The position numbers and the translations under genes were made by a program. From Actinomycetes bacterium (GTDB lineage Bacteria; Actinomycetota; Thermoleophilia; Gaiellales; F1-60-MAGs149): DNA of 38,697 bases. The notes beneath the pieces were generated by a model. The model worked only from the letters and a program-made list of their open reading frames with translations. It did not search any database and was not told the DNA's origin. The stretch's first letter is position 1. Each line of letters begins with the position of its first letter. The stretch spans positions 1 through 38,697 of the forward strand of contig JANYCN010000001.1 of assembly GCA_025360225.1 (NCBI GenBank), read 5' to 3'. Positions 5,252 to 30,213 of this stretch are shown one piece after another.

Positions 5252-6338
5252 TCGGGAAGTACTGGCGCAGGAGCCCGTTGGTGTTCTCGTTCGAGCGGCG
5301 CTGCCAGGGCGAGTGGGCGTCACAGAAGTAGATCCCCATCCCGGTCAGCTCGCTCGTCTGCTCGTGGAGCGCCATCTCCTTGCCTTGATCCCGGGTGAGC
5401 GTGCGCCGCAGCGCTGGCGGGAGCGTCCGGACGGCTGCGGCAATGCCGTCGCGGATTGCCTCGCCTCAGTGCGCTTCGGGGATGTGGATCAGGATCAGGA
5501 AGCGCGCCTGGCGTTCCACCAGGGTGCCGATCGCCGAGCGGTTTGACTCGCCCATGATCAGGTCGCCCTCCCAGTGGCCACCTTCGCTGCGTCCGTCGAC
5601 GATCGCCGGCCGGTCGCTGATCGGTGTCATCGCCACCAGCCGGCCCCGGCGCCGGGTCGTTGTTGCCTGCCGACGCCGGCGGCGACGCCCGCTGCGAAGC
5701 GCCGTCCATGCCGCGCGCGTGAGCGGTGTCGTGTCGTCGTAGATCGCCTGGTAGATGCTCTCCGTGCAGAGCTGACGAGTGTCGTCGTCAGGGAATCGCA
5801 GACACAGCTCACTCCGGATCTGCTCCGGGCTCCAGCGCGACTCGAGCAGCTCAACGATGACGCGTTGGAGCTCCAGATCGAGCTCCAGTCGACGGCGCCG
5901 GGGCCGCGCGAGACGAAGCCGCGCGGCGTGCTCGGCACCGTTTGCAAGGTACCGGCCACGCCCGTCCGCGTTCCGGCGTAGCTCGCGGCTGACCGTCGAC
6001 GGGCTCCGCCCGACCTCCCCGGCGATACTCCTGATCGAGCGCCCAGCGCGCACCAGGTCGGCGATCACACCGCGTTCATCAACCGACAGATAGCGCGCCG
6101 ACCGCGCGACGGGAAGGGTTCTCGGGATCATCACCGGCGGATAGTGAACAGCGCGCCCACCGACAACGCGAACGGTGCGCCCGTACCTCCAGCGCGTCCC
6201 CGTGCGCCGGTGCACACCAACGATCCGGCGCCCCTCCGCGTTCGACACCCCGCGCGCGATCAGCCGGGCGAACTGCTCGCGCTTCCCCGACAGCGCCACT
6301 CCAACGACCTCGCCGCACCCGTCCCCATCGAACCCCAT
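5252..6338 (-). pseudogene. IS30-family transposase, broken by an in-frame TGA and lacking its C-terminus
   Basis: From ATG 6338 the frame reads an N-terminal helix-turn-helix (SGKREQFARLIARGVSNAE, VGVHRRTGTRWR), a second HTH typical of IS30 (YLSVDERGVIADLVRAGRS, then SIAGEVGRSPSTVSRELRRN), and the catalytic core start (VDGRSEGGHWEGDLIMG, first Asp). After PEAH a TGA codon (5466-5468) interrupts the frame. Directly beyond it, in the same frame, come GEAIRDGIAAAVRTLPPALRRTLTRDQGKEMA, then GIYFCDAHSPWQRRSNENTNGLLRQYFPKG (second Asp and the Asn/Glu region). The expected last roughly 45 residues after FPKG are replaced by the repeated 5' sequence. A nonsense change plus loss of the C-terminus makes it inactive. 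No redox or cysteine site lies at this TGA, so a recoding role is unlikely. Confidence 0.8.
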
Positions 6339-6388
6339 CGTCGCCCTCGCCTCGCGTCAGCGTTGCGACGACCGCTGGAATCCGCCCT
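6165..6388 (-). repeat. 224-bp direct repeat, right copy (IS30 5' region)
   Basis: Partner of 5027-5250. It contains the region upstream of the IS30 transposase start and its first roughly 58 codons. Its right end at 6388 is where the DnaC-like ATPase reading is broken off. Confidence 0.85.
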
Positions 6389-6840
6389 GTCGTTGCCAAC
6401 AGGCTCGCCTCCGCCCCTGTCCGGTACGAGTCGCGGAGCTCGGCAAGCAGGTCGCGAGCGTTCACGAACAGGCCACCAGTGCCGGCGTGGACGAGCTCGC
6501 GCACGATCGACCAGGCGAGGCCGGTCTTCCCGGCACCGACGGCGCCGACGACGATCAGGTTCCCACCGGCGAGCCGGTCAGCGGCCATCCAGCGCCGTGC
6601 GAGAGCGACGGCACGCCGGGCCTCGCCGTCCACCGGGTACGACGCGAACGACCACGCGCGGCGGCGCGGGTCATCGAGTCGCGCACGCCGCAACCGCCGC
6701 GCCGACTCCTCCTTCTCCCCGTCGATCGCGTTCCTCGCCGCCGCGTCCGCCATGCAGGCAAGGCAGGTGGCCGCCTCGACCCGGAAGGCGCCGCTCCCGA
6801 CGACGGCACGCTCGGCGCCGCACGCGCAGCGCCGGCTCAT
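6389..6840 (-). pseudogene. DnaC/IstB-like AAA+ ATPase, 3' half lost at the IS30 junction
   Basis: About 150 residues from ATG 6840 are preserved. The N-terminus has a likely zinc site (CAC near residue 5 and CLAC near residue 26). It is followed by a linker and a P-loop (GAVGAGKTGLAWSIVREL) after the GNLIVVG strand, then LFVNARDLLAELRDSYRTG, a segment typical of DnaC-like helicase loaders of phages, plasmids and integrative elements. At 6388 the frame runs into IS30 DNA just where the Walker B strand (LLVLDDLG-type) would follow, and no continuation is found on the far side of the IS. The start overlaps the stop of the upstream helix-turn-helix gene by four bases (ATGA), so the two formed a replication operon before the disruption. 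Confidence 0.7.
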
Positions 6841-7337
6841 CGCTCACCCTCGAACTGCGAGTAGGTCGGCAGCGACTCGAACGCCGAGCCACCCGGAGCC
6901 GAACGAAGCCGCCGAGGGGGTCTGGGGGTCTCTTCCCTTCGTTCAACTGGATCCAAGTTCCCTGCGCAGCCCGTTGCGCTACCGGTCGCGCACTCCACTG
7001 CACCACCCCGCGCAGACGGCTGCACGACCCCGGGCCGGGCCCGAAGCACGGTGTACACGCTCGTCGTCCAGTCGCCACGCTCGTCACGACGCCGCGTGAT
7101 GCGCAACGCCCCAACACCGACGAGACGCTCGAGCGCAGCGTCGACCGTGCGGACGCTCGCGACCGCGCACCGCTCCGCGATCCGCCGCCGCGACGGCCAC
7201 GCCTCGCCCGTCTCGTTGTCGGCGTGCTCGGCGAGCACCAGGTAGACCTGCAGCTCGCGCGCCCCGATCCCCTCCGAACCCACGAGCCACGACGGCACCA
7301 CCAGGAGCGGCCCGGTATCCGACCGCGCCGGCTTCAC
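6837..7337 (-). CDS. Helix-turn-helix replication-initiator-like protein of a mobile element
   Basis: A protein of about 166 residues. GTG 7337 is preferred because GGGGAG lies five bases before it; the frame extends to 7412 without support. After SDTGPLLVVPSWLVGSEGIGARELQVYLVLAEHADNETGEAWPSRRRIAERC comes a winged-helix core (VASVRTVDAALERLVGVGALRITRRRDERGDW), the pattern of helix-turn-helix domains found in plasmid and phage replication proteins and often paired with a DnaC-like loader. The C-terminal third is Arg/Pro-rich and probably disordered. Its stop overlaps the start of the truncated ATPase. With the partner broken, the module is probably non-functional. The roughly 210 bases between this gene and the next hold no gene. 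Confidence 0.7.
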   Translation of the reverse strand: MKPARSDTGPLLVVPSWLVGSEGIGARELQVYLVLAEHADNETGEAWPSRRRIAERCAVASVRTVDAALERLVGVGALRITRRRDERGDWTTSVYTVLRARPGVVQPSARGGAVECATGSATGCAGNLDPVERREETPRPPRRLRSAPGGSAFESLPTYSQFEGER

Positions 7338-7549
7338 GACCACTCCCCGAGGTAGGGCCGGGGTAGGAAACTCGCCACCAGACGACCCTCCACGCACCGC
7401 GCCAACCCGCATTCAAGCCATTCAGCCAGCTCCGGCGGCCCTCTCGGCGAACCAGCTCTTCTAGATCGTTGGCCTAGTCATGGGCGTCTTCAGCTCCCAC
7501 CGATGACCGGGGGTTGGCGTCGCCCGGCTCGCGATGCAGGCTCCCGGCG

Positions 7550-23292: not shown

Positions 23293-24081
23293 ATGCGTCG
23301 AGGGGTGAGACGGGCCGGGCGGATGCTGCCGCACGGCTGGGGTGACTTCTGGGTGCAGTTCGCGGTGTTCTGGACGTTCTACGCCGGCTACGAGCTCTCG
23401 GCACACCTCGCGAGCGGCGCTCGGCCGACGGCGTTCGCGAACGGCGAGCGCGTGATGTCGGTGGAGCGCTCGCTCCACCTGTTCATCGAGCCGGCCATCC
23501 AACGCTGGACGCTGCACGACGCGCCAGCGGCCTTCCTGTGGCTCGCGAACAACACCTACTTCACGTGCCAGTTCGCGATCTCGTTCGGCTTCATGCTGTG
23601 GACGTATGCGATGGCAAACCACGCGTTCTACTTCGTGCGCAACACGATCCTGCTGATCGACTTCATCGGCCTTGGCGGCTACTTCACCGTCCCAACGGCT
23701 CCACCACGGATGTTCCCCGGGTTCGTCGACACGCTCCACACACAGCCCATCAGCATGCAGAGCTCGCTGGTGCAGGCGCTCGGCAACCCGTACGCGGCGA
23801 TGCCGAGCCTGCACTCCGCGTACGCGATCGTGCTCGGCGTCACCGGCGTCGTCGTCTTCCGCCACCCAGCCGTGCGCGCGCTGTGGACGATCTACCCGGC
23901 GATCGTGGTGTACGCCATCGTCGCCACGGGAAACCACTTCGTGCTTGACGCGCTCGGCGGCCTCGCCGTCGCCGGAATCGCCCTCGTCGCGAGCCTCGCG
24001 ATCGCCAGAGGACGGTTCCCCCGCCGTGGCGCCGCTCCTGTCGGTTTCCTCGTGCCGCGCCCCGCTGCGACGACGCGGTGA
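23293..24081 (+). CDS. PAP2-superfamily (Aur1/Ipt1-type) membrane phosphatase or phosphotransferase
   Basis: A protein of 262 residues with about six membrane helices, starting at ATG 23293. The PAP2_3/inositolphosphotransferase-type active-site pieces are visible: TVPTAPPRMFPGF, then NPYAAMPSLHSAYAIVLG (PSLHS, first catalytic His) and VVYAIVATGNHFVLDALGG (GNH with downstream Asp, second His). Relatives either hydrolyse lipid phosphates or move phosphoinositol head groups. Next in the same direction are a phosphatidylinositol-phosphate synthase-like gene and inositol-phosphate synthase, so this protein may dephosphorylate phosphatidylinositol phosphate to phosphatidylinositol. That role is inference from context. 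Divergent from the flavoprotein gene, with 32 bases between the starts. Confidence 0.8.
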   Translation: MRRGVRRAGRMLPHGWGDFWVQFAVFWTFYAGYELSAHLASGARPTAFANGERVMSVERSLHLFIEPAIQRWTLHDAPAAFLWLANNTYFTCQFAISFGFMLWTYAMANHAFYFVRNTILLIDFIGLGGYFTVPTAPPRMFPGFVDTLHTQPISMQSSLVQALGNPYAAMPSLHSAYAIVLGVTGVVVFRHPAVRALWTIYPAIVVYAIVATGNHFVLDALGGLAVAGIALVASLAIARGRFPRRGAAPVGFLVPRPAATTR

Positions 24082-24481
24082 TGAGCCACCGAGTGTGCCG
24101 TTTTGTACATACCCTGGTGGTTCGTCGTGAGGAGCACGTCTGACAAGCGCCAGCGAGGGAGCTTGCTGATCGCGGGGCGTGCTGGATAGCACGCCCGCTC
24201 GCACGTGACCGAGCTGGAGACCCGGTGATCTGGTGGATACCAGATCACCTCGCACGCTGGTTGCCCAGCTCTCGACCCGACCTGTCGGGCGACGTTTCAG
24301 ACGCCGCTGCGGAGCGCTCGAACCGCCACGTATGTTCGAGACGGTGCACGAGCGGCGCGCGTCAAAGGACCAGAGCTCCGGTGCGTCACCGGCGGCGACT
24401 GACGACCGCTCGTCGGTCGAAAGCGACCGCTCGTCGGCGCATGCTTGGTTGATCGCCGGGAGCCTGGGACGCTGCACGGAG
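24082..24481 (+). promoter_or_regulatory. 400-base leader region of the inositol-lipid operon
   Basis: There is no convincing gene between the PAP2 stop and ATG 24482. The frame upstream of 24482 is open from 24233, but its product is polar, low in family-like features and antisense-neutral. The region is rich in dyads: two strong hairpins at 24175-24249 (separate entry), CCCGACctGTCGGG near 24280-24295, and a repeated GCGACCGCTCGTCGG-like sequence near 24404 and 24424. A long structured 5' untranslated region is likely. Confidence 0.45.
24175..24249 (+). ncRNA. Tandem strong hairpins with identical GGAT tetraloops (candidate structured RNA leader)
   Basis: Hairpin A (24175-24196) is GGGCGTGCT-GGAT-AGCACGCCC with nine perfect pairs. 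Hairpin B (24224-24249) is GGTGATCTGGT-GGAT-ACCAGATCACC with eleven perfect pairs. Both loops are GGAU closed by a U-A pair, although the stem sequences are unrelated. The loops are 51 bases apart. Neither hairpin is followed by a U-run. No known riboswitch class was recognised. Confidence 0.5.
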
Positions 24482-25105
24482 ATGAACGCGCATCTCGAAC
24501 GCTTCCAGCACGGCTACACGTCCGGCACGCGCCGGCTCGTCGCCGACGTGGTCCGCATGTTCCGCCGGATCCCGATCACTGCGAACCAGGTCACCGCGGC
24601 CGGGTTCGCTCTCAACATCATCTCGGCGGTGTTGATCTATCGCGAGCTGTGGGTCGCCAGCGGCGTCGTGTTCCTCCTCGGCTCGATCCTCGACGTCTTC
24701 GATGGAGCGATCGCCCGCTACAAGGGTGAGGAGAGCTCCGTCGGCGCGTTCGTCGACGCCACGGTCGACCGGATCGCCGAGGGCTTCGTGCTGGGTGCGA
24801 TCGCGCTCGTCTTTGCCCGACACGGAAACACGCTTGCGCTGGCGGCGGTCTTCGCGGCGCTCGTCGCCTCGTTCCTGACGTCGTACACGCGTGCGCGTGC
24901 CGAGATCGAGGGACTCGACGGCATCTCCGGACTGATGGCACGCGCCGAACGCGTCGTGCTGCTTGGCGCCGCGCTCCTCTTCGCGCCGCTCGGCGGGCCG
25001 GTGCTGCCGTGGGCGATGTACCTGCTCGCCGGTCTCTCCGCCGTCACGGTCTTCCAGCGTGTCCGGCACGTGCTCGCGCAGATGCGCGCGCTCGACCCTC
25101 GTTAG
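24482..25105 (+). CDS. CDP-alcohol phosphatidyltransferase, phosphatidylinositol-phosphate synthase-like
   Basis: A membrane enzyme of 207 residues starting at ATG 24482, with GGAG right before it. The CDP-alcohol phosphotransferase signature D-G-x2-A-R-x8-G-x3-D-x3-D is complete in [29 protein letters not shown] (about residues 70-98). About six hydrophobic segments follow the family layout, starting with [23 protein letters not shown] and ending with [21 protein letters not shown]. In actinobacteria this family makes phosphatidylinositol phosphate from CDP-diacylglycerol and inositol 3-phosphate. The next gene makes inositol 3-phosphate, which supports that substrate over glycerol phosphate. 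Confidence 0.88.
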
Positions 25106-25136
25106 TCAACCCGTCACCCCTGCAAGGAGCAAGTCC

Positions 25137-26291
25137 GTGAGTGAGAGCAACGGCTCGGTTGTTGGACGTCCATCCGACGGCAAGGTTCGCGTCGCCATCG
25201 TCGGCGTTGGCAACTGCGCGTCGTCCCTCGTGCAGGGCGTCGAGTACTACAAGAACGCCGTCGACGACGAGTTCGTCCCCGGCCTGATGCACGTCAACCT
25301 CGGCGGCTATCACGTCCGCGACGTCGAGTTCGTCGCAGCGATCGACGTCGACAAGGACAAGGTTGGCAAGGACCTTGCCGACGCGATCTGGTCGGGGCAG
25401 AACAACACGATCAAGTTCGCCGACGTCGCGACGACCGGCATCACCGTCGCCCGCGGTATGACGCACGACGGCATCGGCAAGTACCTGTCGCAGGTGATCG
25501 AGAAGGCCGACGGTCCGACCGACGACATCGTCCAGATCCTCAAGGACACCAAGGCTGACGTGCTCGTCTCCTACCTGCCGGTCGGGTCGGAGGAGGCGAC
25601 GAAGTGGTACGTCGAGCAGGCGCTGCAGGCCGGCGTCGCGTTCGTCAACTGCATCCCCGTGTTCATCGCCCGCGAGGACTACTGGCGCGGCCGGTTCGAG
25701 AAGGCCGGGCTGCCGATCATCGGCGACGACATCAAGTCCCAGGTCGGCGCAACGATCATCCATCGCGTCCTCGCCCGGCTGTTCGACGACCGCGGCGTGA
25801 AGATCGAGCGCACCTATCAGCTCAACGTCGGCGGCAACACCGACTTCATGAACATGCTCGAGCGCGAGCGCCTCGAGTCGAAGAAGATCTCCAAGACGAA
25901 CGCCGTCACCTCGCAGATCCCGTACGCGATGGCGCCGGGCGACGTGCACATCGGCCCGTCCGACCACGTGCCGTGGCTGAAGGACCGCAAGTGGGCCTAC
26001 ATCCGCGTGGAAGGTCGCTCGTTCGGTGACGTGCCGCTGAACGCCGAGCTGAAGCTCGAGGTTTGGGACTCGCCGAACTCCGCCGGGATCGTCATCGACG
26101 CCGTGCGGCTGATCAAGATCGCGCTCGACAACGGCATCGCCGGTGCGCTCGAGTACCCATCGGCGTACCTGATGAAGTCGCCGCCAGTGCAGCACCACGA
26201 CGAGCTGGCGCGCGACGCTGTCGAGGCGTTCATCGCCGAGCACGCACGAAGCGCCCCGACGAAGCCGGCGAAGGAGAAGGCCAAGAAGTGA
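25137..26291 (+). CDS. ino1: Inositol-3-phosphate synthase
   Basis: A protein of 384 residues from GTG 25137 with a strong ribosome site (AAGGAG, eight bases upstream). It converts glucose 6-phosphate to 1D-myo-inositol 3-phosphate with bound NAD. The actinobacterial form is recognised by [22 protein letters not shown] (NAD-binding), the [24 protein letters not shown] segment, [59 protein letters not shown], and [27 protein letters not shown]. The tail is Lys-rich. It lies 31 bases after the phosphatidyltransferase gene and overlaps the next gene by four bases, so all three form one operon. Confidence 0.95.
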
Positions 26292-28084
26292 CGCTGCGTG
26301 TCTGTCTCGTAACGCCGTACGCGTGGGACAGGCCGCACGAAGGGAACGACCACGTGGCCGCGCTCGCGTCGCACCTGACGCGAGCCGGTCACGTCGTCGT
26401 TGTCCTCGCCCCTGCCAGCCGCCCCGTCTCGCTCCGTGACGGCCGCGCCCGGCTGCGGCTGCTCGAGCGCGGCGTCAGCTCGGCGCTAGAGCCGACCCCG
26501 GGCACCCCGCTCGTGTTCACCGTCGGACAGCCGGGTCGCGGCATCCCGACGCTGCCCTCCGTGGCGGCGGCCGTCCGGCGGGTGCTCCACGACGGCGCGT
26601 TTGACATCGTCGAGGCCCTCGACCCGGACCTGCCGGGGCCGAGCGCCGCGGCGTTGCGCGACAGCCCGACGCCGGTGATGGCGACGTTCAGCCGAACGAC
26701 CGCGCGGCGCCCGATCACCGCGAAGGCGGCCGAGAGGATCGCCGCCAGGGCCGCGGTCGCGACCGCCCTGTCGCAGGCGGCAGCAACGAGCACGCGGGAG
26801 CGCCTGGGGATCGAGACGACGGTGCTGGGCCCGATGCTGCCGAACGCGACCACGCCTCGGGAGCGCGTGCGCACGGTGGTCGTCGAGTGTCCGCTCGCCG
26901 ATCCATCGCTGATCCGCCCGCTGCTCGCCGAGGTCGCCCTCCACACGGCGGCGGTACGTCTCGCCCGATCCTCCGCCCTTGCCGCGCCGGCGCTCCGTGC
27001 CCTCGTGCCGGCGGGCGCGAGCAGCGTCCAGATCGTCGACGCCGCAGGAGGCGCTGCTCGCGACGCCGCCCTCGACGGTGCGACGATCTACGTGGCCCAT
27101 CCTCGCGGCAGCATGATCGCCGCGCTCCACGCCGCGGCCGCAGGCGCCGTCGTCGTCGCCGTGCGCGACACCGCGCCAGCAGAGCACGTCACGCACGAGC
27201 GAGACGGCCTGCTGGTAGCGCAGGGCCAGCCGGCGCTGCTCGCGGCGAGCGTAGGGCGCCTGCTCGCCAACGACGCGCTCCGCCACGCCCTCTCCACCGC
27301 CGGCGTGACGCGGGCCGGGGAACGGGCCGCGACGACGAGCGCGGCACGGGAGGAGGCGTACCGCGACCTCGCTCGCCCCCGTGAGGAGCGACCGTCGCAG
27401 GGCGGCGATCGAATCCTCTGCGACTTTCACATGCACACCGACCACTCTGGTGACTGTGCGACACCTGTCAGGGCGCTTGTCGATCGGGCGGTGGCACTCG
27501 GCCTCGGTGCGATCGCCGTAACCGACCACAACACGATCGCCGGCGGCGTGGCAGCGGCAGCGGACGTTGCCGCCCGCGGCCTCGACCTGCACGTGATCGT
27601 CGGGTCGGAGATCAAGACGACCACGGGCGAGGTGATCGGCCTCTACCTGACCGAGGAGATCCCCCGCGGGATGCCGTTCGCCGACACGGTCGAGGCGATC
27701 CACGCGCAGGGCGGCGTCGTCTACGTGCCGCACCCGTTCGACCGGCTCCACAGCATCTGCGACCCGGCACTCCTGCGCCGCCTCGTTGACGAGATCGACG
27801 TGATCGAGTCCTGCAACGCGCGCCTGTACCGCGAGGCGTACAACCACGAGGCAGCGGCGTTCGCGCGTCGCCACGGCCTGCTCGAGGGCGCAGGTTCCGA
27901 CGCACACGTCCTCGAAGGGCTCGGCACGGCTGCCGTTCGTCTGCCGCGCTTCGACGACGCAGCGTCGCTCCTCATCGCCCTCGGCGAGGGCGTGATCGAG
28001 CGGCGGAAGGTGAGCGTCGCGTACGTCCAAGCACTGAAGTGGGTGCGTCAGGCAAGGAAGCAGCGCGGAGGCGGCGAATCGTAG
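26288..28084 (+). CDS. GT-B glycosyltransferase fused to a PHP-domain phosphoesterase
   Basis: A protein of 598 residues from GTG 26288, overlapping the ino1 stop (GTGA). Residues 1 to about 365 form a GT4-like glycosyltransferase: [38 protein letters not shown] at the N-terminus and a nucleotide-sugar site [25 protein letters not shown] with an E-x7-E-like arrangement. From about 378 a PHP domain follows with its metal ligands: [45 protein letters not shown] and [11 protein letters not shown]. In Mycobacterium a GT4 enzyme (PimA) mannosylates phosphatidylinositol, so a lipid glycosylation role is plausible here. The PHP half could remove a phosphate from the inositol lipid or from a sugar phosphate. 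The specificities are inference; the fusion itself is clear. Confidence 0.85.
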
Positions 28085-28093
28085 GGACGATCG

Positions 28094-28699
28094 ATGCCGA
28101 GCACCGACGAGATCTACGAGCGTTACCTCGCGAGGGCGATCCGCGAGATGAACACCCTCGGCGACGAGATCGGCGCCTGCACGCGGATCCCCCACCCGGC
28201 GAACGCTGCCGTGCTCGGAAGCGGGCACCCGCTCGCCGACATCATGCTGCTGAAGTTTCGGGCGCAGGCAGCGGAGATCCAGGAAGGCGTTGCCTTCTTC
28301 GGTCGCACCGGCGCCGCAATCCTGAAGTCGGTGCGTCGTCTCGACATCGACCCGCTCGTGATCTACGGCACAAACTGCGTCAAGTGCGCAGACGGCAACC
28401 CGGACGACGCGGTCGCGGCCTGCCCGGCGTGGCTGATGCGCGAGATCGCGATCACCGAGCCGAAGATCATCGTCGCGATGGGCGAGGACGTCGTGCATGC
28501 CCTGAACGACCTGAAGGTGCCGCTGAGCGAGCCGGTTGATGCAACGCGGCTCGGCGAGGTGCAGCGCCTGACGCCGACGATCGAGGTGCTCGTCGTGCCC
28601 GACATTGACGGTGCGCTCAACGACGAGGACGCGAAGCGGGCATTCTGGAACGCGTTCAAGGCGCTCGGACAGTGGTACGACGCGCTGCCGCCGTACTGA
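28094..28699 (+). CDS. Divergent uracil-DNA glycosylase-superfamily protein lacking catalytic motifs
   Basis: A protein of 201 residues from ATG 28094. Middle features match family 4-type uracil-DNA glycosylases: EGVAFFGRTGAAILKSVRRLDID, VIYGTNCVKCADGNPDDAVAACPAWLMREIAITEPKIIVAMGEDVVHAL, including three cysteines of the iron-sulfur site (NCVKC...AC); GACTR near residue 29 could supply the fourth. The usual first active-site motif (GExPGxxED) reads GSGHPLADIMLLK and the C-terminal HPS motif is absent (VVPDIDGALND instead). Base-excision activity is therefore doubtful; a DNA-binding or structural role is possible. The next gene starts inside its 3' end (28-base overlap). Confidence 0.7.
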   Translation: MPSTDEIYERYLARAIREMNTLGDEIGACTRIPHPANAAVLGSGHPLADIMLLKFRAQAAEIQEGVAFFGRTGAAILKSVRRLDIDPLVIYGTNCVKCADGNPDDAVAACPAWLMREIAITEPKIIVAMGEDVVHALNDLKVPLSEPVDATRLGEVQRLTPTIEVLVVPDIDGALNDEDAKRAFWNAFKALGQWYDALPPY

Positions 28700-30213
28700 C
28701 GCTCGCGACGGCCTGGGCGCTCTGGACCGTCGGGGCGCCGCGCCTGCCTGCGGCGCGTGAGCTCACCGAGATCCTCGCGACGGCGCTCGTCGCGATCCCG
28801 CTCGCCAGCGCGACGACGATCACCGCCGTCGCCGGGTTGCGCCGCTCCCCGCGATCGCTGGTCGTCGCCGGCGCTGCCGCCGCGACGGCCGTCGTCGGGG
28901 CGACGGCGCTCGGCTCGCCGACGCTCGCCGGTGCGGCAAAGCTCGTCGCGGCTGCCACGGTCGGCGCGCTCGCTGCACGCCTGCTCGACCGCTCGTGGCA
29001 GGCGGCGATCGTCGCGGTGCTCGTGATCGGCGTTGACACGTACTCGGTGTTCCGCGGTCCGACGAGGCAGCTGCTCGACCACGGCGGGGCGGCGATCGGC
29101 TGGTTGACGGTGCCGTTGTCGGCCCCAGGGCGCTACGGCGCAGCGGCGCTCGGAGTCACCGACTTCGTCTTCCTCGCGCTCTTCGCAACGGTCACGTTGC
29201 GCTGGCGACTGCGGCCCGGAGTGACCCTTCCGCTCTGCGTCGCCTCGTTCGGGGGCAGCCTCGTCCTCGCGACGGCGACGAGCGCGGCAGTCCCGGCGTT
29301 ACCGCTGCTCGCGCTCGGCTTCCTCGTCCCGAACGCCCGTCGCCTCCTGCCGTCAGCACCACCGCCAGCGCCGACGATCGATGAGCGGCAGCGGCCTGCG
29401 TCGGGCGCGAACGCGCGACGTAACGCCCGTGCGCCAATCGATCGGGCCGCTCGCTGGAGGCCAGCGAGAGACGCTCTGTGGTCCGTCCTTGACCCGATCG
29501 TGGCAAGCGGCGCGACGATCGCGATCGTCGGCGCAGGAAACTGCGACGACGTCCCCCTGACGCGGCTCGCGCTGCGCGCCGAGCGCATCGACCTGCTTGA
29601 CGTCGACGTGGCGAGCTGCCTGCGCGCGATCCACCGCGAGCCGGCGCTGCTGCGCCCACGGCTTCGGGCGCTCGGCGTCGACGTCACCGGTGGCGTCGCC
29701 GACAGCGTCGTCGCCGCGGTGATCGGCGGCCGGGTGCCAACGGTAGCGCAGCAGACGTGGGAGCCACTCGGCGACGGCCCGTACGACGTCGTCATCGGCG
29801 ACCTCCTCTACAGCCAGCTGCTCTACCCCGCGCTCGCGGACGCGAGCGTGCCCGAGGCGAGGATCGGCATCTCGCTCCGCGCCTACGGTGACGCCGTCAC
29901 CGGCATCGCGGTGTCGCGGCTGCATGCGAGCGCCCCGCGTGGCGTCGTGGTGCACGTCAACGACCCGCTCGCGTGGTGGGATGGGCACGAGCAGCCGTTT
30001 CCGCTCTCCCGCGTCCTGGCGGCTGCGGCGGAGGGCGCTGAGGACGCGCTCGCCCTCGTCGCAACCGGTAACCGGCCGACCGGTTGTGACCCGCGCAACT
30101 CGCTCGCGGCGCTCGGCATCCCTGTCGTCAGCACGACGTTCTGGCGCTGGCCGTTCACCGTCGGCGTGGACTACCTCGCCTGCGCGACGGTCGCCCGCAC
30201 CCCGTCGCGATGA
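28672..30213 (+). CDS. Presenilin/SPP-like intramembrane aspartyl protease fused to a SAM-binding-like Rossmann domain
   Basis: A protein of 513 residues from GTG 28672. Residues 1 to about 220 form seven or eight hydrophobic segments. Three motifs match GxGD aspartyl proteases: a TM6-like VLVIGVDTYSVFRGPTRQLL (Asp 122; compare YD...GPLRML in presenilin), a TM7-like LGVTDFVFLALF (Asp 164 in place of GLGDF), and PALP at 208-211 (the PAL motif). The spacing between the two Asp residues (42) is close to signal peptide peptidase. After a Pro/Arg linker (about 222-265) a soluble domain begins with ATIAIVGAGNCDDVPLTRLA and RIDLLDVDVA, like a SAM-dependent methyltransferase fold, then YDVVIGDLLYSQLLYPAL. 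The start overlaps the previous gene by 28 bases, and another start is possible. The substrate is unknown. Confidence 0.7.
   Translation: MVRRAAAVLTLATAWALWTVGAPRLPAARELTEILATALVAIPLASATTITAVAGLRRSPRSLVVAGAAAATAVVGATALGSPTLAGAAKLVAAATVGALAARLLDRSWQAAIVAVLVIGVDTYSVFRGPTRQLLDHGGAAIGWLTVPLSAPGRYGAAALGVTDFVFLALFATVTLRWRLRPGVTLPLCVASFGGSLVLATATSAAVPALPLLALGFLVPNARRLLPSAPPPAPTIDERQRPASGANARRNARAPIDRAARWRPARDALWSVLDPIVASGATIAIVGAGNCDDVPLTRLALRAERIDLLDVDVASCLRAIHREPALLRPRLRALGVDVTGGVADSVVAAVIGGRVPTVAQQTWEPLGDGPYDVVIGDLLYSQLLYPALADASVPEARIGISLRAYGDAVTGIAVSRLHASAPRGVVVHVNDPLAWWDGHEQPFPLSRVLAAAAEGAEDALALVATGNRPTGCDPRNSLAALGIPVVSTTFWRWPFTVGVDYLACATVARTPSR

Follow-up and report, generated by a model that had tools for sequence, protein, structure and literature searches.

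The window analysed here is a stretch of 38,697 nucleotides from an Actinomycetes bacterium (assembly GCA_025360225.1, contig JANYCN010000001.1, positions 1-38,697 of the forward strand), assigned in GTDB to Bacteria; Actinomycetota; Thermoleophilia; Gaiellales; F1-60-MAGs149. It contains a gene coding for a single polypeptide that joins an N-terminal membrane domain to a C-terminal methyltransferase-like domain, and the start of this gene is overlapped over 28 bases by an upstream gene of the uracil-DNA-glycosylase (UDG) superfamily (Table 1). An initial reading, made from sequence only, had pointed to three elements of the GxGD aspartyl proteases in the N-terminal half, namely one aspartate (D122) in VDTYSVFRGPTRQLL, a second in GVTDF (which contains G161-V-T-D164) and a PALP motif, and to a GAGN motif in the C-terminal half. 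The three protease elements were found in that order and as placed, GAGN lies at residues 287-290, and the open reading frame and its motifs are real. Another genome of the same family, G003, encodes the same two-domain open reading frame with 56% identity, beginning at the equivalent place with an ATG. This orthologue supports the GTG start of the window gene and rules out a sequencing accident, frameshift or assembly artefact as the source of the fusion.

Table 1. Features of the fusion gene, its surroundings and related loci
Feature	Position	Strand	Basis
Whole fusion gene, 513 aa, GTG start, open throughout	28672..30213	+	Open reading frame; G003 orthologue of same architecture
Presenilin-type membrane domain, residues 1-229, eight predicted helices	28672..29358	+	AlphaFold2, PDB structure matches, profile match
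Putative first catalytic Asp, D122, aligned with the presenilin-1/2 TM6 aspartate	29035..29037	+	Profile alignment; 59/59
GP(T) motif G129-P130-T131 and short helix 130-137, at the presenilin TM6a position	29056..29082	+	Model, conservation
Two short β-strands, residues 146-151 and 154-161, directly before the second Asp	29107..29154	+	AlphaFold2 model
GxxD motif G161-V162-T163-D164 with putative second catalytic Asp; Thr for the usual second Gly	29152..29163	+	Alignment
PALP motif P208-A-L-P211, residues 208-211, start of last helix	29293..29304	+	Profile alignment, conservation
Class I SAM-methyltransferase-like domain, residues 232-513	29365..30210	+	AlphaFold2, Foldseek, Z 15.0 to UbiG/NodS
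Methyltransferase motif I region VGAGNCDD, residues 286-293	29527..29550	+	Alignment of six homologues
UDG-superfamily gene	28094..28699	+	Pfam UDG 1.7e-9
Conserved inositol-phospholipid cluster: PAP2, CDP-alcohol phosphatidyltransferase, myo-inositol-1-phosphate synthase, glycosyltransferase-PHP fusion	window 23293-28084
M48 membrane protease genes near lone methyltransferase-like domain	L042 9563-10618; L043 9535-10467; L044 4433-5461

A full-length phmmer search with the fusion protein against the PDB sequences returned no match, and single members of the family are so divergent that presenilins are detected by the family profile only. A profile built from 18 relatives, searched against 177,635 PDB sequences, recovered eight distinct matches, all of them presenilin-1 or presenilin-2 (best E 4.6e-7). 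The alignment keeps three parts in register: TM6 with its Asp, the surroundings of GxGD, and the segment that runs up to PALP. The same two proteins were retrieved at 8.9e-8 with a profile of 44 sequences, and no other PDB chain was significant with either profile. The Pfam presenilin model was directly matched by 5 of the 18 members (best 1.6e-6). The window protein itself has no PF01080 match, the best relative attains 28 bits against a curated cut-off of 34.3 bits, and this cut-off was passed in none of the 31 and none of the 12 genomes searched, which leaves the bacterial family unannotated. The signal peptide peptidase (SPP) model PF04258 matched one of 44 members, at only 0.038, and NCBIfam gave nothing of note for the window protein or the family members. 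Weak Pfam matches to DUF7673, DUF4267, YwiC and SDF, scattered among members, were set aside.

An AlphaFold2 model of residues 1-229, computed without templates (pLDDT 92.1, pTM 0.90), contains eight helices (2-24, 30-55, 60-79, 83-102, 108-127, 162-177, 182-203 and 210-225), and the two aspartates fall in adjacent ones, D122 in helix 108-127 and D164 in helix 162-177. Foldseek placed human presenilin chains at the top with a probability of about 1.0 at an E of only about 0.02 (0.018). With a second structure aligner the top 24 rows were all presenilin, the archaeal homologue PSH or SPPL2a (Z 16.4-10.5), and the next row, an unrelated fold, had a Z of 5.6. How the first four helices pair with TM1-TM5 of presenilin differs between the approaches: helix 2 (30-55) superposes on PS1 from residue 73, near TM1, whereas the sequence profile suggests TM2-TM3. 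Both the profile search and the structure prediction that had been proposed along with the sequence-only reading therefore bear out its view of the N-terminal half as presenilin/SPP-like. By fold, profile and motifs, the assignment of residues 1-229 to a compact diaspartyl membrane protein of the presenilin superfamily is supported, and protease activity is predicted for it.

The fold of presenilin (PF01080; PS1/PS2) is matched along some 190 residues (8x53: Z 16.4 with an rmsd of 3.9 Å for 191 residues; 6iyc: Z 16.2 with an rmsd of 2.9 Å for 190 residues). Presenilin shares with the bacterial domain both aspartates, the GP after TM6, the strands before TM7 and PALP; the Armatimonadota members additionally share GLGDFIF with it. 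In PS1, TM6a comprises L268-R278 (PMC10290658), and the same paper describes two enzyme strands of gamma-secretase that pair with the substrate to form a hybrid β-sheet. The bacterial family differs from presenilin in several respects: 1) the model has eight helices rather than nine; 2) a tight turn replaces the long TM6-TM7 loop; 3) the second GxGD glycine is replaced in Actinomycetota; 4) the predicted orientation is opposite; 5) its members lie below the Pfam cut-off; and 6) the window protein carries a fused methyltransferase. SPP and the SPPL proteins (PF04258) share the superfamily fold as well (SPPL2a: Z 12.8 at an rmsd of 3.5-3.6 Å for 182-188 residues), as does the single-chain prokaryotic enzyme of archaea, PSH/MCMJR1 of the A22 family (4y6k, Z 13.3; 4hyc, Z 10.9). 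MCMJR1 is without an obvious PAL motif (PMC2947513), whereas the bacterial family has one, and PSH sequences in the PDB, unlike presenilins, were not recovered by the family profile.

The putative catalytic residues are strongly conserved. D122, G129, G161 and D164 occur in every one of 59 distinct homologues, which argues against chance occurrence of the motifs, while P208 and L210 are each kept in 57 of the 59 and P211 in 56. These homologues were recovered by profile with no motif filter, with a mild bias remaining from the motif-selected sequences on which the profile was built, and the Armatimonadota motifs were read in the strongest loci only. The residue directly before the second aspartate behaves otherwise. 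It is glycine, giving GxGD, in 17 of 18 Armatimonadota sequences, whereas strict GxGD is absent from the window protein (GVTD) and from all 26 Actinomycetota sequences examined, which have Ser (10), Pro (8), Thr (5) or Ala (3) instead; in a maximum-likelihood tree the two sets are split by a well-supported branch. The variant had been singled out at the outset as unusual, and it does depart from GxGD, but it is a property of the actinobacterial members at large rather than of this protein alone.

The PS1 counterpart of this residue, Gly384, is reported to be required for function (PMC2647162), and human presenilin becomes almost inactive when bulkier residues take the place of the GxGD glycines (PMC10290658). 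Hence the loss of this glycine throughout the Actinomycetota could mark a loss of proteolysis there, leaving a presenilin-fold pseudoprotease or a membrane protein that handles lipids or cations. The placement of the gene in an inositol-phospholipid cluster fits a role with lipids, and archaeal presenilin-like proteases have also been reported as ion channels, according to work cited in PMC7997004. We nevertheless regard such a non-proteolytic role as rather improbable: if catalysis had been lost, one would not expect P208/L210/P211, the remaining glycine and the two aspartates to be almost fully conserved, and three of the substitutes (S, A and T) have small side chains. The Actinomycetota may have bypassed the missing second glycine or may have lost proteolysis, and judging from the sequences we favour a bypass, since both aspartates are fully conserved.

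The orientation of the domain was assessed from its loop charges. The N-terminus, loops 2-3, 4-5 and 7-8 and the C-terminus have a mean net charge of +4.6, against -0.7 on the side of the catalytic loop, and the N-/C-terminal side is the more positive one in 42 of 44 sequences, including 26 of 26 from Actinomycetota. The positive-inside rule thus predicts two cytosolic ends and a catalytic loop on the outside. This does not match the topology of presenilin in gamma-secretase, where the N-terminus and the catalytic loop are both cytosolic. Presenilin and SPP are mutually inverted, and their substrate preferences, type I and type II respectively, correspond to this (PMC7768045; PMC2947513). In having a predicted cytosolic C-terminus and an external catalytic loop the bacterial family resembles SPP, but its sequence is closer to presenilin, so that an SPP-type orientation (N-in/C-in) is predicted for a presenilin-like sequence. 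A cytosolic C-terminus of the protease domain would be compatible with a SAM-dependent enzyme at that end.

Residues 232-513 were modelled by AlphaFold2 from an alignment of six homologues (pLDDT 89.4, pTM 0.90) and display the seven-stranded, Rossmann-like topology of class I methyltransferases. The domain begins near residue 232, and not at 265 as had been supposed. Foldseek matched it to methyltransferases at an E of about 1e-8 (1.3e-8), and the structure aligner ranked UbiG and NodS (both Z 15.0) together with NRMT2 (Z 14.9). Class I SAM methyltransferases as a group (UbiG, NodS, NTMT1/NRMT2, NNMT) share this fold with Z of about 14-15, at 10-18% identity. The best structures are a mix of small-molecule, lipid-quinone and peptide methyltransferases, and with matches of so many kinds the fold is clear while no single substrate is indicated. 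GAGNCDD is present, as are the acidic D310/D312 after strand 2, and DD-x-PL is conserved in all six homologues; the third glycine of GxGxG is absent, motif I of the fusion protein reads GAGNxDD, and it is more degraded in the homologue from G115. The window protein's C-terminal domain reached no curated family. The original notion of a SAM-enzyme-like C-terminal half agrees with these results, which support a class I SAM-methyltransferase fold, with SAM binding and activity predicted.

The fusion of the two domains was found in two genomes only, the window genome and G003. Among 61 relatives, most genomes of the window's order have a stand-alone protein that corresponds to the first ~229 residues only, and in three genomes of family f4 only the last ~280 are encoded, which indicates that the halves are independent domains fused in the window's lineage. 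The presenilin-type domain occurs in 16 of 246 sampled Actinomycetota genomes, each belonging either to the class of the window or to family f20, of which Rubrobacter is a member; for the profile, the remaining 230 genomes provided the negative control. It is present in 172 of 201 genomes of Armatimonadota, the only other phylum sampled. Two Armatimonadota members (L025, L026) have an extra hydrophobic segment past the last core helix that is absent in the Actinomycetota members. Another Armatimonadota locus (L083) encodes a second, diverged presenilin-like paralogue (5777-6691), directly downstream of which is a gene (6787-7509) whose beginning resembles that of a prepilin (GFTLIELLVVIAIIAILAAILFPVF); the proximity is possibly fortuitous, since genes of this kind may be frequent there.

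In all 25 loci checked in the window's class, the gene immediately upstream of the presenilin-like one is a UDG-superfamily gene with the same direction, and the gap between the two ranges from -24 to 863 bases. Its product falls well short of the family-4 UDG cut-offs, and by eye its usual catalytic motifs look altered; for these two reasons it may not be a working glycosylase. The recurring gene order is PAP2, CDP-alcohol phosphatidyltransferase, myo-inositol-1-phosphate synthase, glycosyltransferase/PHP, UDG, the presenilin-like gene and a TrmA-like methyltransferase, and the match to CDP-alcohol phosphatidyltransferase is kept in 5 of 6 Rubrobacteraceae loci. In the Armatimonadota neighbourhoods inspected by eye (L082-L084) no conserved partner gene was seen.

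These neighbours raise an alternative in which the two domains act independently, the methyltransferase modifying a lipid or small molecule of the inositol pathway and the fusion serving merely as a membrane tether. The first four genes of the cluster would suit such a role, as would the mixed structural matches of the C-terminal domain, and the homologue in G115 lies between cation-efflux genes with no protease beside it. On the other hand, the protease domain occupies the cluster in many genomes without the methyltransferase, so that the cluster needs no fusion, and the other lone C-terminal domains of the order, one in each of the three f4 genomes, all follow a gene for an M48 membrane protease, adjoining it in two cases and separated from it by one short open reading frame in the third. 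Independent action is accordingly the most serious competitor, though still an unlikely one in our estimation. The M48 pairing is possibly a second tie between the C-terminal domain and membrane proteolysis.

A diaspartyl membrane protease with methylation in the same polypeptide, as we infer for the fusion, recalls PilD, a bifunctional GXGD protease and N-methyltransferase (PMC3584216). The first report on the locus had known of no described fusion of these activities; PilD already combines a GXGD protease with methylation, but its domains are unrelated to those seen here. It belongs to another protease family and uses a zinc site, whereas the fusion protein has a class I SAM-methyltransferase fold, and PilD would be the closest functional parallel, built from different parts. 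An actual relationship to the type IV prepilin peptidases (PilD/FlaK), the other bacterial GxGD family, was also considered, as these are GXGD membrane proteases and PilD methylates its product (PMC3584216). None of the 44 members has a Pfam or NCBIfam match to such families, PALP is present, and the high-scoring structure rows are presenilin, PSH and SPP only; an identity as prepilin peptidase is scarcely credible, with neither profile nor fold behind it, and was rejected.

We consider it likely that the protein is a presenilin-family intramembrane protease in SPP orientation joined to a cytosolic SAM methyltransferase, the two inferred activities being coupled for cleavage and methylation. 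The N-terminal half would be a minimal intramembrane aspartyl protease of the presenilin family, an equivalence established for fold and motifs and expected for catalysis. Superposition suggests that D122 and D164 face each other in the membrane, where they would cut a transmembrane segment. The substrate, once unwound, would be gripped by the GP-helix and the pair of short strands, in a site expected to be lined by PALP. As the predicted orientation is that of SPP and not presenilin, the enzyme would probably act on segments of type II (N-in), for instance signal anchors or spent signal peptides. The C-terminal half, joined to the protease in the window's lineage only, would bind SAM in the cytosol and, in the weakest step of the scheme, would most probably methylate either the released cytosolic fragment or the membrane substrate of the protease, following a PilD-like logic. 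Counted against this explanation are the Thr at the second GxGD glycine, the Pfam scores below cut-off, the non-textbook motif I, the restriction of the fusion to two genomes and the presence of eight helices instead of nine.

Presenilin is the catalytic subunit of gamma-secretase, where nicastrin, APH-1 and PEN-2 are its partners, and has been studied because it is the maker of amyloid-β in Alzheimer's disease, and its prokaryotic relatives are, to our knowledge, known almost only from archaea. We found no paper on the present bacterial presenilin-type family in the open-licence literature, preprints excluded, and the family is apparently undescribed. Given that it is invisible to Pfam and NCBIfam, its members are to be expected as "hypothetical protein" in the annotation of many genomes. 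What is most interesting in these findings is the family itself, along with its predicted orientation and its deviation from GxGD. In the boldest reading, which we put forward as a speculation with the odds against it, there is a widespread clade of bacterial presenilins in inverted orientation, near-universal in Armatimonadota, whose actinobacterial members catalyse without the second GxGD glycine and which in the window's lineage gave rise to an independent, PilD-like enzyme that cleaves and then methylates. The compact single-chain bacterial form, with exact GLGDFIF and PALP in some members, would offer simpler enzymes for study, and the natural occurrence of S, P, T or A at the Gly384 position would provide a ready-made test of the role of that glycine. 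Lastly, the fusion and the M48 pairing together suggest a possible tie between membrane proteolysis and methylation.
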